Below are positions 8,030 through 59,465 of a stretch of DNA of 59,465 nucleotides, piece after piece. The notes below the pieces were generated by a model. It did no database searches. It was given only the letters and a program-made list of their open reading frames with translations, and was not told the DNA's origin. The translations under genes and the position numbers were made by a program. Positions within the stretch are counted from its first letter, which is position 1, and each line of letters begins with the position of its first letter. Source of the stretch: Anaerolineae bacterium (lineage in GTDB: Bacteria; Chloroflexota; Anaerolineae; Anaerolineales; E44-bin32); the NCBI GenBank assembly GCA_030605795.1, contig JAUWHR010000028.1:1-59465 (forward strand). Direction: 5' to 3'.

Positions 8030-8610
8030 TGTCACTCCGAGCAACTATGTTGCGAGGAGTCTACACGCTATTAACTTCATTCCCTGACGATGCTCCGGAG
8101 GAAACCCTCCCCATTAATGTCACTCCGAGCAACTATGTTGCCAGGAGTCTCCACGCTACTAACTTCATTCCCTGACGATGCTCCGGAGGAGATCCCTCAC
8201 TCGCAGAGCTCGTTCGGGATGACATTCGGCCCTGGAAGTGTCATTCCTGAGCAACTGTGTTGCGAGGAGTCTCCACGCGATTAACTTCATTCCCTAACGA
8301 TGCTCCGGATGAGATCCTCCCCATTAATGTCACTCCGAGCAACTATGTTGCCAGGAGTCTCCACGCTATTAACTTCTTTCCCTGACGATGCTCCGGAGGA
8401 GATCCCTCACTCGCAGAGCTCGTTCGGGATGACATTCGGCCCCGGAAGTGTCACTCCGAGCAATTATGTTGCGAGGAGTCTCCACGCTACTAACTTCATT
8501 CCCTAATGATGCTCCGGAGGAGATCCCTCACTCGCAGAGCTCGTTCGGGATGACAGCCGACCAGGGAAGTGTCACTCCTGAGCTAGCCACGCGAGCGAGG
8601 AATCCCTGAG
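8030..8610. repeat. Tandem repeat array with alternating 121-bp and 88-bp units
   Basis: Units begin with TGTCACTCC or TGTCATTCC at 8030, 8118, 8239, 8328, 8449 and 8570. Long units end in CTCGTTCGGGATGACA, so unit ends are inverted with respect to each other. Two short units (from 8030 and 8328) lack about 33 bp that includes that end. The last unit is truncated and runs into a GCGAGGAATCCCT sequence. Several open frames cross the array, but they are translations of the repeat itself. It lies between the 5' end of murJ and the 3' end of the C39-like gene. Confidence 0.85.
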
Positions 8611-13890: not shown

Positions 13891-14009
13891 ATGACTTCGC
13901 TGAAAGAAGCTACAATATGAGAAAGTAAACGGTGTGTGGGGGGTGTGGGTAAAGCATCTACCTCACACTTATATCCAATTTCCTAATAGTGGTTGCTTTT
14001 CGGTAGACT
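13891..14009. mobile_element. MITE-like palindromic element, copy 1 (decayed)
   Basis: This aligns along its whole length to the other copies: GACTTCGCTGAAAGAAGC at the left end, GAGAAAGTAAACGGT before the centre, GGGGTGTGGGTAAAGC in the left arm, and CTTTTCGGTAGACT at the right end. The central palindrome has lost part of its pairing (right arm TACCTCACACTTATATCC). The remaining bases to 14212 upstream of the GGDEF gene show no gene. Confidence 0.7.
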
Positions 14010-14212
14010 CGGTTTTGCATTAACAAAGCGAACAGAAATATTGCCGCTCAGCGCAGCTCGTTTTATACTGGTAGTGGGTGCAATGAAACTAGTTAGCCGT
14101 GCCAGTCGCTTTTTATCCAACCTGGGGTAGGTTTCATATCGGTGATAATACTACTGATGCCCTGCTTGATCCGGGAGCAGATGCACTGGCTGCCAAATAG
14201 GAGCACCTGAGC

Positions 14213-26649: not shown

Positions 26650-26769
26650 GACCACACTGAGAAAAAAAACCAAGCGCGAGAAAGGGAAATGTATATGCGG
26701 GGTGTGGGTTTTGCCCACACCCCGCATATACCTTATTTTCCTGCTGCCAGAGTCTTTTTTTTGAAGACT
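26650..26769. mobile_element. MITE-like palindromic element, copy 2
   Basis: The left end CCACACTGAGAAAAAAAA and right end TTTTTTTTGAAGACT bracket a perfect 18-bp hairpin (26691-26708 with 26714-26731, arm containing TATATGCGGGGTGTGGG, loop TTTTG). The stretches CAAGCGCGAGAAAGGGAA and TTTTCCTGCTGCC match other copies. It could serve as terminator for the FHA gene. No clear flanking duplication is seen. Confidence 0.82.
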
Positions 26770-26906
26770 CGTTAAGCGGTACCGGCGTGCGACGGGTATA
26801 GTCAGGAGTGGACTAACAACCGCCCCGGTTCATCATCACCGTCCAGGTGCATGAGATGGCTGTTGTCTGATTATATTTACTAGTAAAATTTAGGATGGAG
26901 GTCGTT

Positions 26907-36484: not shown

Positions 36485-36566
36485 CGCTACTTCCATTACT
36501 GGCACTTGAATTCTAGCGGAAGAGTGCGCAACGACAAAGCGATCCGTTTGTATATATTGTATTTGT

Positions 36567-36687
36567 GACTCCACTGAAAAAAGGTCAACCGCGAGAAGAG
36601 GACCGGTATATGTGGGGGTGCGGGCGCAGACCGCACCCCCACATATACCCCTCTCCACTCCTTGAGGGTAGTTTTTTTCAGTGCACT
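36567..36687. mobile_element. MITE-like palindromic element, copy 3
   Basis: The left end GACTCCACTGAAAAAAGG and right end TTTTTTTCAGTGCACT bracket a perfect 19-bp stem (36605-36623 with 36631-36649, arm TATATGTGGGGGTGCGG). It is flanked by ATTTGT at 36561-36566 and 36689-36694, an imperfect target duplication. It is nearly identical to copy 7 and forms a second subfamily with it. Confidence 0.85.
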
Positions 36688-36757
36688 CATTTGTAATACA
36701 GTAGGGTTCGTTCAGTGTATGTGTTTTTCTATCTGATCACGCGGGATTGGAAAGGGA

Positions 36758-36995
36758 TAGGAGCAATTCATGCCGTCTCGCATCCCGTTTGGGCCGAGAG
36801 TCCTGGCCCGACGGGGCGAAACGGCCGGCGTGCCGCCAGTCAAAGGTGCCGGGTGGTTTTCCCGGCATTTTGCGACACGAACGGTGAATTGCCCCTACTG
36901 TTGTTTAATCGTGTCCCCTCTAGTGAGCTAGGGGCGAAGCATTCGCTATATTCATGAATCGATGCGGGTCATATGAAACTGCGAATGCTTCGCCC
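36758..36995. repeat. Adjacent palindromic intergenic repeats near clpB 3' end
   Basis: There are three inverted repeats. TAGGAGCAATTCA (36758-36770) pairs with TGAATTGCCCCTA (36885-36897) with one mismatch. Between them, TGCCGGG and CCCGGCA (36847-36867) form a hairpin followed by TTTT. GGGCGAAGCATTCGC (36932-36946) is perfectly inverted at 36981-36995. No gene is seen in 36691-37013. Any of these may terminate clpB transcription. Confidence 0.65.
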
Positions 36996-37013
36996 TTACA
37001 CGTGACGGGTTAC

Positions 37014-39867: not shown

Positions 39868-39983
39868 GACTGTACTGAAAAAAGCTAACGTGCTAGAAAG
39901 GGAACGGTATATGAGTGGTGTGGGTTTTGCCACACCACTCATATACCCCCTTTACCGCTGGCGACTGTTTTTTTCAGTAAACT
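39868..39983. mobile_element. MITE-like palindromic element, copy 4, in the clpB-hsp20 divergent region
   Basis: The left end GACTGTACTGAAAAAAGC and right end TTTTTTTCAGTAAACT bracket a perfect 18-bp stem (39906-39923 with 39930-39947, arm TATATGAGTGGTGTGG). It occupies the space directly upstream of the hsp20 ribosome site and would act as a terminator for any transcript entering from the clpB side. In the remainder of 39618-40008 no CIRCE element was seen. Confidence 0.85.
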
Positions 39984-40008
39984 AAATTTTTTGTTGGGAG
40001 GAATTTCA

Positions 40009-41200: not shown

Positions 41201-41262
41201 TCTAGGTGAAAATATAATCTGGCCCGATTCTTGCCACTTCATATTAAAAGATTGTATGCTAT

Positions 41263-41380
41263 GACTGCACTGAAAAACGCCCAAGCGCGAGGAAGGGAAA
41301 GATATATGTGATGTGTGGGCAAAGCCCACACATCACATATATCACCTTTTCCTGCTGGCGGATGCTATTTTCAGTAGACT
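41263..41380. mobile_element. MITE-like palindromic element, copy 5, with 8-bp target duplication
   Basis: This is the best-defined copy. GACTGCACTGAAAA at the left and TTTTCAGTAGACT at the right are inverted. The centre is a perfect 20-bp hairpin with an AAA loop (41301-41320 with 41324-41343, arm TATATGTGATGTGTGGGC). TATGCTAT stands immediately outside both ends (41255-41262 and 41381-41388), a perfect 8-bp direct repeat. It carries no gene. Confidence 0.9.
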
Positions 41381-41426
41381 TATGCTATATGATTGGTAGG
41401 TTTGGTTGCAGGAGGGAAAAGGGACT

Positions 41427-43904: not shown

Positions 43905-43947
43905 AGAAGACTTACTAGGTGCTGGAGATGATAAATGTCGAAGTGGG

Positions 43948-48740: not shown

Positions 48741-48752
48741 TTTCCAGATTAT

Positions 48753-48832
48753 GGCTGCACTGATAAAAGCCCAAGGGCGAGAAAGGGAACGGTATCCATT
48801 ATCCTTTTGGCGGCTACTTTTTTCAGCAAACT
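48753..48832. mobile_element. MITE-like element, copy 6, lacking the central hairpin
   Basis: The left half (GGCTGCACTGATAAAAGC, then GGCGAGAAAGGGAACGGTAT) and the right half (CCTTTTGGCGGCTACTTTTT, then CAGCAAACT) match other copies. The 40-bp central palindrome has been lost and the halves joined at GGTATCCATTATCC. It lies between the pseudo-receiver gene and the histidine kinase. Confidence 0.8.
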
Positions 48833-48904
48833 TAGATTATCAAAAAAGACGACCTTATCAGGAGTAGCGTCAGGTAACGCTACGATCCCAGATGACGAAG
48901 CTAT

Positions 48905-54746: not shown

Positions 54747-56591
54747 TTGGTCGAACCTAATGAGGAGACCATCGGAGATGAGACGGCTCCCTCCAAACAA
54801 CCTTTAGAGGGAGGAGAAGGGCTGGATTCTCACCCGATGGATGTCTTGCTGGAATCAGAATCATATGAGCTTGAGATACCCCGGCGAGGTGAGATTCGGA
54901 AAGGAACCATTGCTCGCGTTACCGAGAATGATGTGTTAGTGGATGTTGGCGCCAAGTCTGAAGGTGTCATCTCTGCTCGGGAGCTCGAAAGACTATCGGA
55001 TGAGAGACGAGCGGGGCTGGTGGTTGGGCAGGAGGTTGATGTCTACGTTGTGAGTTCTGGTGGGCAGAGTGGCGCGCTGATTTTGTCTGTTGTGCGTGCA
55101 GAAGAGGAGCAGGACTGGCAGCGGGCTGAGCAACTGCTGGATAGCCAGGAACTGTATGAAGGAGTGATCTCTGGTTACAACAAAGGGGGCTTGATCATCA
55201 AGCTCGGTCGTCTACGGGGGTTTGTGCCTGCTTCTCAGGTAAATCTCTCACGCCGTCGTCGCGTTCATGGTGATACCCCTGATAAGCGTTGGGGGAAGAT
55301 GGTCGGCGAGTCGATGATGGCCAAAGTCATCGAGGTTGATCGACGTCGCAACCGGTTAATCCTGTCCGAGCGGTTGGCTGCGCGTGAGGCGCGCGACGCA
55401 TTTAAGGATCGGCTAATCGCTGAACTTCAACCCGGCGAAGTCCGCACCGGTTACGTCATCAGTCTAGCCGATTTTGGCGCCTTTATCGACATTGGCGGAG
55501 CGGATGGCTTGGTACATATGTCGGAGATCTCGTGGAAGCGCATCACTCATCCGCGTGATTTGCTCAAGGTTGGCCAACAAGTCGAGGTCAAGGTGTTGGG
55601 GGTAGATCCTAAGCGTAGGCGAATTAGTCTATCGTTGCGTGAACTCGAATCTGATCCCTGGAATAGTATCACCGAGCAGTATCGTGAAGGGCAATTAGTC
55701 GAGGGTACTGTTACTAAGCTTACAAAGTTTGGTGCCTTTGCCTCTCTAGTAGGGGCGGAAGAGTACGACATCGAGGGCCTGATCCATATTTCCGAATTAT
55801 CAGATCGGCGGATCGAGAATCCTCAAGAGGTGGTCCAGGAGAGTCAAACGCTGACATTGCGAATAATCAAGATCGACCGCGAGCGGCGCCGCATAGGCCT
55901 CAGTCTAAAACAGGTTGATTCAGCAGAGTATGCAGAGCAAGATTGGCAAGCCGCCATGCAGGACATTGAAGAACTAAGCGAGGAGGGGATCGGCGTCGGC
56001 TTGTCAGAAGAGGTCGAGGATTTCGACGCCGCGCTGGAAGCTGAGGCCTCCGCAAGTAATGAGGTCGAAGCAGCCGTGGATGAGATCGCTGAGGCTGAGG
56101 AGCCGGAGGCGCCAATAGCTGAGGATGCGGAAACTGTTGAGCCAGAGGTGCAGGCAGAGGAGTTGGTCGAGGTGGTGGAGCTCGAAGTACCAGAGGCTGA
56201 GGAGCCGGAGGTGCTAATAGCTGAGGATGCAGAAACCGTTGAGCCAGAGGTGCCGGTAGAGGAGTTGGTCGAGGTGGCGGAGCTCGAGGTACCAGAGGCT
56301 GAGGAGCCGAAGGCGCTAATAGCTGAGGATGCAGAAACTGTTGAGCCAGAAGTGCAGGTAGAGGAGTTGGCCGAGGTGGCGGAGCTCGAGGTACCAGAGG
56401 CTAAGGTGACTGACATTGTGGAGCCTGAGATGGCGGATGAACAGGCTGTCGAGGCCGAGGAGCCTGAAGCGACGCAGGATGAGGTCAACGAATCCAAAAA
56501 GGTTGAGGCACCAGACGCCGAGGAAGGATCTCCTCCGACGGTCGAATCGGAGATTAAAGACCCCGGTGGTGGTGAAGATGATGCTGAGTAG
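54747..56591 (+). CDS. rpsA: Ribosomal protein S1-like RNA-binding protein with long acidic repeat tail
   Basis: This protein has four S1 (OB-fold) domains: about residues 49-120 (RKGTIARVTENDVLVDVGAK), 130-205 (YEGVISGYNKGGLIIKLGRL), 220-290 (GYVISLADFGAFIDIGGADG) and 305-380 (GTVTKLTKFGAFASLVGAEE). It should bind mRNA and help initiation on the 30S subunit. It is followed by an unusual tail of about 200 residues, almost only Glu, Ala, Val and Pro, partly in three tandem units. The start is TTG at 54747 with GGAGA upstream and a strong promoter. The total of 614 aa is long for four domains because of the tail. It is read towards clpC. Confidence 0.87.
   Translation: MVEPNEETIGDETAPSKQPLEGGEGLDSHPMDVLLESESYELEIPRRGEIRKGTIARVTENDVLVDVGAKSEGVISARELERLSDERRAGLVVGQEVDVYVVSSGGQSGALILSVVRAEEEQDWQRAEQLLDSQELYEGVISGYNKGGLIIKLGRLRGFVPASQVNLSRRRRVHGDTPDKRWGKMVGESMMAKVIEVDRRRNRLILSERLAAREARDAFKDRLIAELQPGEVRTGYVISLADFGAFIDIGGADGLVHMSEISWKRITHPRDLLKVGQQVEVKVLGVDPKRRRISLSLRELESDPWNSITEQYREGQLVEGTVTKLTKFGAFASLVGAEEYDIEGLIHISELSDRRIENPQEVVQESQTLTLRIIKIDRERRRIGLSLKQVDSAEYAEQDWQAAMQDIEELSEEGIGVGLSEEVEDFDAALEAEASASNEVEAAVDEIAEAEEPEAPIAEDAETVEPEVQAEELVEVVELEVPEAEEPEVLIAEDAETVEPEVPVEELVEVAELEVPEAEEPKALIAEDAETVEPEVQVEELAEVAELEVPEAKVTDIVEPEMADEQAVEAEEPEATQDEVNESKKVEAPDAEEGSPPTVESEIKDPGGGEDDAE
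56101..56410 (+). repeat. 102-bp tandem repeat within the S1-like gene
   Basis: Three units with AGCCGGAGG-type starts at 56101, 56203 and 56305 repeat every 102 bp, in frame, each encoding a 34-residue unit (LIAEDAETVEPEV, then EELVEVAELEVPEAEEP). Copies differ by scattered substitutions, so the amplification is not very recent. Confidence 0.88.
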
Positions 56592-59298: not shown

Positions 59299-59419
59299 GA
59301 CTCCACTGAAAAAAAGGTCTACCGCGAGAAGGGAACCGGTATATGTGGGGGTGCGGGCGCCGCCCGCACCCCCCCCTATAAACCACCCCGCTACACGCGG
59401 GTATTTTTTTTCAGTGCAC
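59299..59419. mobile_element. MITE-like palindromic element, copy 7
   Basis: The left end GACTCCACTGAAAAAAAGG and right end TTTTTTTTCAGTGCAC match copy 3 closely. The central stem (GTGGGGGTGCGGGCG, with CGCCCGCACCCCC) is mostly paired but eroded at its outer right side (CCCCTATAAACC). ACTTATCT (59291-59298) and ACATATCT (59420-59427) flank it, a 7-of-8 target duplication. It follows directly after the clpC terminator. Confidence 0.85.
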
Positions 59420-59465
59420 ACATATCTATTGTATGGTAGGGACCCGGATATCTGAAAACCACTTC

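Follow-up and report, generated by a model that had tools for sequence, protein, structure and literature searches.

The palindromic element that lies between a rhomboid gene and an HHH gene in this Anaerolineae genome is very probably a MITE copy, inserted with a 6-7-bp stagger at an A-N4/5-T target by a DDE transposase that an IS1182-like IS supplied in trans. The window analysed is the whole of a 59,465-bp contig (C68) from a 2.66-Mb, 80.8%-complete MAG (G000), and it holds further copies of the same family (Table 1). MITEs and IS1182-like ISs share their ends, the flanking repeats have a length that stands out statistically, empty sites occur in a close relative, and both intact and decayed copies of the IS are present.

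Table 1. Positions in the window of the focal element, its parts and flanks, the other family copies, and a site occupied in a relative
Feature	Position	Strand	Remarks
Focal MITE copy, subfamily A	41263..41381	+	TIRs GACTGCACTGAAAAA / AAGTCTACTGAAAA; central 43-nt perfect palindrome
Target duplication ATGCTAT, left copy	41256..41262	.	7 bp, A-N5-T
Target duplication ATGCTAT, right copy	41382..41388	.	
Central palindrome of focal copy	41301..41343	.	GATATATGTGATGTGTGGGC-AAA-GCCCACACATCACATATATC
Degenerate subfamily A copy	13893..14010	+	
Subfamily A copy, degenerate ends	26650..26770	+	
Subfamily B copy	36567..36688	+	Duplication ATTTGT at 36561-36566 and 36689-36694
Subfamily A copy upstream of HSP20 gene	39868..39984	+	No remaining exact duplication
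Empty target site CTAGGT	43915..43920	.	Copy at the orthologous position in G003
81-bp copy without palindrome	48753..48833	+	Duplication AGATTAT at 48746-48752 and 48834-48840
Subfamily B copy (copy 7)	59299..59421	+	Flanks TTATCT/ATATCT, 5/6 matching

As is typical of MITEs, the elements are short (54-129 bp, where a MITE may have up to about 500 bp) and numerous, enclose no transposase gene and carry inverted repeats at both termini (GACTSCACTGAAAAAA). These TIRs, 15-18 bp long and beginning GACTSCACTGAAAAAAG..., are followed by paired arms and a central GC-rich palindrome. Allowing three or fewer mismatches, the MAG contains 133 instances of the end motif TGACTGCACTGAAAAAAGC, against a single one for a reversed-pattern control. 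Two subfamilies can be told apart: A, to which the focal copy belongs, reads GACTGC...GTAGACTC, and B, of which there are 40 or more full copies with identity up to 96%, reads GACTCC...GTGCACTC. Within one Anaerolineales family the repeat spans several genera, and it recurs in one further family of that order. Related elements that share the ends but differ in arm and palindrome sequence lie at L177 1644-1765 (G015) and L181 5223-5337 (G045), in another genus and another family of the order. The window also contains repeats of other kinds: a palindromic repeat unlike the MITE at 36758-36898 (GGAGCAATTCATG...TGAATTGCCCCT), with many copies in the congeners G001, G002 and G004; a second such repeat at 36925-36996, with ends GGGGCGAAGCATTCGC/GCGAATGCTTCGCCC; and tandem-like direct repeats of ~210 bp at 8039-8578 and ~102 bp at 56063-56491, the latter falling within a long open frame.

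Pooling the distinct full-length copies found at every retrieved locus of this MAG and its relatives, we compared left and right n-base flanks for identity, with re-paired flanks as the reference. When the ends are set at GA...TC, exact 6-bp repeats bound 32 of 104 copies (shuffled mean 0.63, maximum 3; z 15.4) and exact 7-bp repeats 13 (shuffled 0.16; z 8.3); at n=8 a single copy has an exact repeat and identity is at background (z -0.4), while exact flanking repeats of 9-12 bp are absent from all 104. Duplications of 8 bp do not characterise the family. The target duplication of fixed size that is expected of a MITE is seen both in these peaks and in the empty sites described below, at a target whose consensus is A-N4/5-T (extended, Y-A-N4-T-R or A-N5-T).

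Where the element ends and its target begins depends on the outermost T and A. With the ends at TGA...TCA, 40 of 99 copies show exact repetition of a 4-bp core (1.6 after shuffling) and 14 that of a 5-bp core, an A preceding the core and a T coming after it; exact duplication of at least 3 bp is absent in 44 of the 99. The frequent 4-bp core would fit a duplication of 4-5 bp by an element running from TGA to TCA with a preference for A-N4-T targets, and 4-bp direct repeats are listed for ISPse1 (PMC3281130) and for an ISMac2-related MITE (PMC3852290). Nine cases with T/A as the element base but not as the flank base are likewise compatible with a T...A element that duplicates 4 bp. However, of 12 terminal bases other than T/A, 11 are identical to the base on the opposite side of the duplication, which is unexpected if the terminal base is purely element-owned. 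From this match we infer that the outer T and A are mostly part of the target and that the element itself is GA...TC; a 4-5-bp duplication we consider unlikely.

The focal copy, laid out as ATGCTAT / GACTGC...AGACTT / ATGCTAT, is a 7-bp case. The earlier note had delimited a 118-bp element at 41263-41380, flanked on both sides by TATGCTAT, and had attributed it to 8-bp staggered cuts with the whole octamer as the duplication. The octamer is indeed exact on both flanks, at 41255-41262 and 41381-41388, but its right-hand T is the last position of the element, which is C in nearly all other copies of the alignment. The eighth matching base can thus be traced to a change of the element's last base from C to T together with a T present by chance in the left flank; the element extends one base further, to 119 bp, and the true duplication is ATGCTAT. 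Since the flank statistics peak at n=6 and n=7, and the empty sites likewise point to 6-7 bp, an 8-bp stagger is refuted for the family and highly improbable for this copy; the family instead gives 6 bp and, less often, 7 bp. Boundaries read off a single copy can, as here, inflate a target duplication. The remaining flank observations of the earlier note were borne out: ATTTGT lies on either side of copy 3, the flanks of copy 7 are as described (Table 1), duplications recur at further copies at the frequencies given above, and the view of a mobile element whose boundaries are set by its target duplication agrees with the flank statistics over 99-104 copies.

Empty sites, which the earlier note had proposed to look for in the rhomboid-HHH spacer of close relatives, were found at other loci in G003, the closest genome, a congener with 84-88% nucleotide identity (about 87%) over the main shared stretches. 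Opposite the empty CTAGGT in the window, G003 carries a 55-bp B element (GA...TT) between ACAGGT and ACCGGT, and three more elements of G000 correspond to empty orthologous positions in G003, the gaps being -4, -4 and -5 when the ends are taken as TGA...TCA, two of these three alignments being noisy at base level. An orthologous gap of -4 or -5 at the four loci with TGA...TCA ends equals 6-7 bp with GA...TC. Three loci (L143, L048 and L053) were left out of this count as too diverged or bearing indels. The 81-bp copy at 48753..48833 is common to G003, at the same place. At the focal locus, an empty target would read ...GTATGCTATATG, with ATGCTAT once. There the spacer between the rhomboid and HHH genes holds an extra gene in the congeners G001, G002 and G004, and the G003 contig breaks off inside the HHH gene. 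An older, decayed B-type element stands before the HHH gene in G001 and G004, and none in G002, so the spot was probably hit separately.

Insertion with a net gain of sequence also bears on a very different route, the replacement of a hairpin without target duplication, as for IS1272 of the IS1182 family. The broad transposase family is the same, and IS1272 and TnSha1 target hairpins, cutting bluntly and leaving no duplication (PMC5678879, PMC4923244). Here, by contrast, roughly every second copy has a duplication, with a strong excess of 6-7-bp ones, and at the empty sites analysed insertion adds sequence and removes no hairpin. The IS1272 pattern, no duplication and a target hairpin partly deleted, is not that of this MITE family, and we regard such replacement as extremely unlikely.

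The search for transposases with element-like ends, suggested by the earlier note, led to IS1182-like ISs, including two decayed copies in the MAG itself. Among the transposase genes of nine genomes, one (contig C425 of G014) is bracketed by the family ends; no other PF01609 transposase in the nine has them at two or fewer mismatches. The G014 IS is 1838 bp long, ends in GAGTCCCCTGAAAAAAGG / GAGTCCGCTGAAATAA and is flanked, outside its GA...TC ends, by the exact 6-bp duplication ATGTAT. Its 576-aa transposase scores above the Pfam cut-offs for PF05598 (DUF772), PF13751 (DDE_Tnp_1_6) and PF01609 (DDE_Tnp_1), and D157, D349 and E482, assigned by eye as the DDE residues, are conserved in two homologues, giving the expected domain architecture. 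The best NCBIfam model is NF033551 (IS1182; E 7.5e-39), but its 133.9 bits fall below the curated equivalog cut-off of 270, and we therefore call the element IS1182-like. ISs of the IS1182 family measure about 1.3-1.95 kb and have terminal repeats; the partner ISs, of 1838 bp and ~1.74 kb with both ends present, lie within that range.

Searching with the G014 transposase yielded a full copy in G024, like G014 a genome of the host's family, and relics elsewhere. Two of the relics lie in the MAG itself, one with a stop and a split reading frame (C87) and one reduced to the N-terminus (C96), each with GAATCCCCTGAAAAAAGG or GGGTCCCCTGAAAAAAGG, the left end of the family, just upstream of the frame. 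Across the 84,980 species genomes scanned, seven loci were recovered, each in an Anaerolineales or Chloroflexi record, and in all seven the left end agrees with the B end at 15-16 of 17 bases, whereas 2,721 random 300-bp windows lacking the family end match at no more than 13 of 17. An exact 6-bp duplication flanks one IS only (that of G014, the same record as L266), the others matching at 4-5 of 6 bases. A MITE should have an autonomous partner with matching ends, and such partners are found in G014, G024 and the other named loci and, as relics, in the MAG itself. Since similarity between MITE and IS stops ~20 bp from the end, the MITE did not arise simply by loss of the interior of a known IS. 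In the 80.8%-complete MAG no intact transposase was found, and single ends searched for an autonomous copy in G000 and G003 revealed half-elements and ordinary genes only. The supply of a transposase in trans, as the earlier note had envisaged, is upheld insofar as an enzyme with shared ends exists, though not with an 8-bp stagger; judging from these shared ends, the focal copy was presumably moved by this IS1182-like transposase, most likely one whose broken genes persist in the same genome.

The central palindrome raises the question of whether the repeats are kept for another reason. For both strands its predicted stem is far more stable than those of shuffled sequences (z -6.6 to -9.6), and among 39 copies 13 of 17 stem pairs have changed on both sides while 95.2% of cells remain paired, a pattern that no shuffle or slid control comes close to. 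The symmetry is maintained across copies. So stable and covarying a hairpin is what one would expect of structured RNAs or bidirectional terminators that are not primarily transposon copies. Yet hairpin-templated repair of a DNA palindrome yields the same pattern with no need for an RNA role, and the covariation is thus no proof of RNA function. Moreover, target duplications and empty sites indicate insertion, many hairpin-less copies (71-84 bp) persist, the window copies do not lie between convergent genes, and a search of Rfam gave no family match; retention as RNA or terminator is therefore very unlikely, and we keep to the reading of the repeats as MITEs. Palindrome-less copies are common and predominate among the G014 stretches read. 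The palindrome loop is GCTTTGC or its reverse complement GCAAAGC at the same arm orientation (alignment columns 61-67), as if flipping.

Covariation across copies and species, combined with clean loss from many copies, leaves room for a more speculative proposal, in our judgement unlikely, that the palindrome is a functional, maintained module, perhaps a fold-back signal in transposition, and that half-elements are recurrent by-products of hairpin cleavage recruited as 5' leaders. If true, hairpin-bearing copies might, for example, be the active form and hairpin-less ones a passive form. Half-elements consist of one arm ending at or just inside the palindrome, as at L043 1501-1548 (G000:C75), L039, L033 and L057, and occur in G003 as well (L121, L122, L125). 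They often stand directly before gene starts, the genes, named by eye, being acyl-CoA synthetase-like, lipoprotein/serpin-like, HPF/RaiA-like and NAD synthase-like; those at C20 (L057) and in G003 (L125) precede the same gene in both species. A TTTAA target is occupied by a full B element in G003:C138 (L253 8471-8592) and by an A half-element in G000:C75 (L043), which suggests a repeated hit at one site.

In the mechanism we favour, the transposase would bind the ends common to IS and MITE and make cuts staggered by 6 bp, or at times 7 bp, in A-N4/5-T targets (extended Y-A-N4-T-R), and gap repair would then produce the direct repeats of 6-7 bp. The repeat can thereby be assigned both a mechanism and an autonomous partner, and an IS1182-like branch gains a 6-7-bp target rule, whereas the well-studied IS1272 makes no duplication. 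In the open-licence literature we found no paper on this MITE family in Chloroflexota; the family is new but fairly ordinary, MITEs tied to IS1182-family elements being already known in MITEPye1 (PMC11578231) and in ISMac2-related elements (PMC3852290). It stands out by its many copies, by its conserved palindrome and by the 6-7-bp duplication rule.

MITEPye1 of Paracoccus yeei, as described, resembles the present family in being short and non-autonomous, with IS1182-family-like ends, direct repeats, a long stem-loop fold and a mostly intergenic location; it has, however, 1-3 chromosomal copies per genome in a different host phylum, whereas the ends counted here far exceed one hundred (PMC11578231). 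The ISMac2-related MITEs of Methanosarcina acetivorans are also IS1182-associated, at 160-169 bp and 7-14 copies, with IS-like ends, but their direct repeat is given as 4 bp or none, and the available portion of the source reports no central palindrome (PMC3852290). Chunjie and other bacterial MITEs share the many copies, conserved ends, direct repeats, full and partial forms and intergenic placement, in other hosts and at other sizes (PMC10969869). The staphylococcal IS1272 and TnSha1, finally, belong to the same broad transposase family as the partner IS and likewise carry terminal inverted repeats, but replace hairpins without the 6-7-bp duplications seen here (PMC5678879, PMC4923244).
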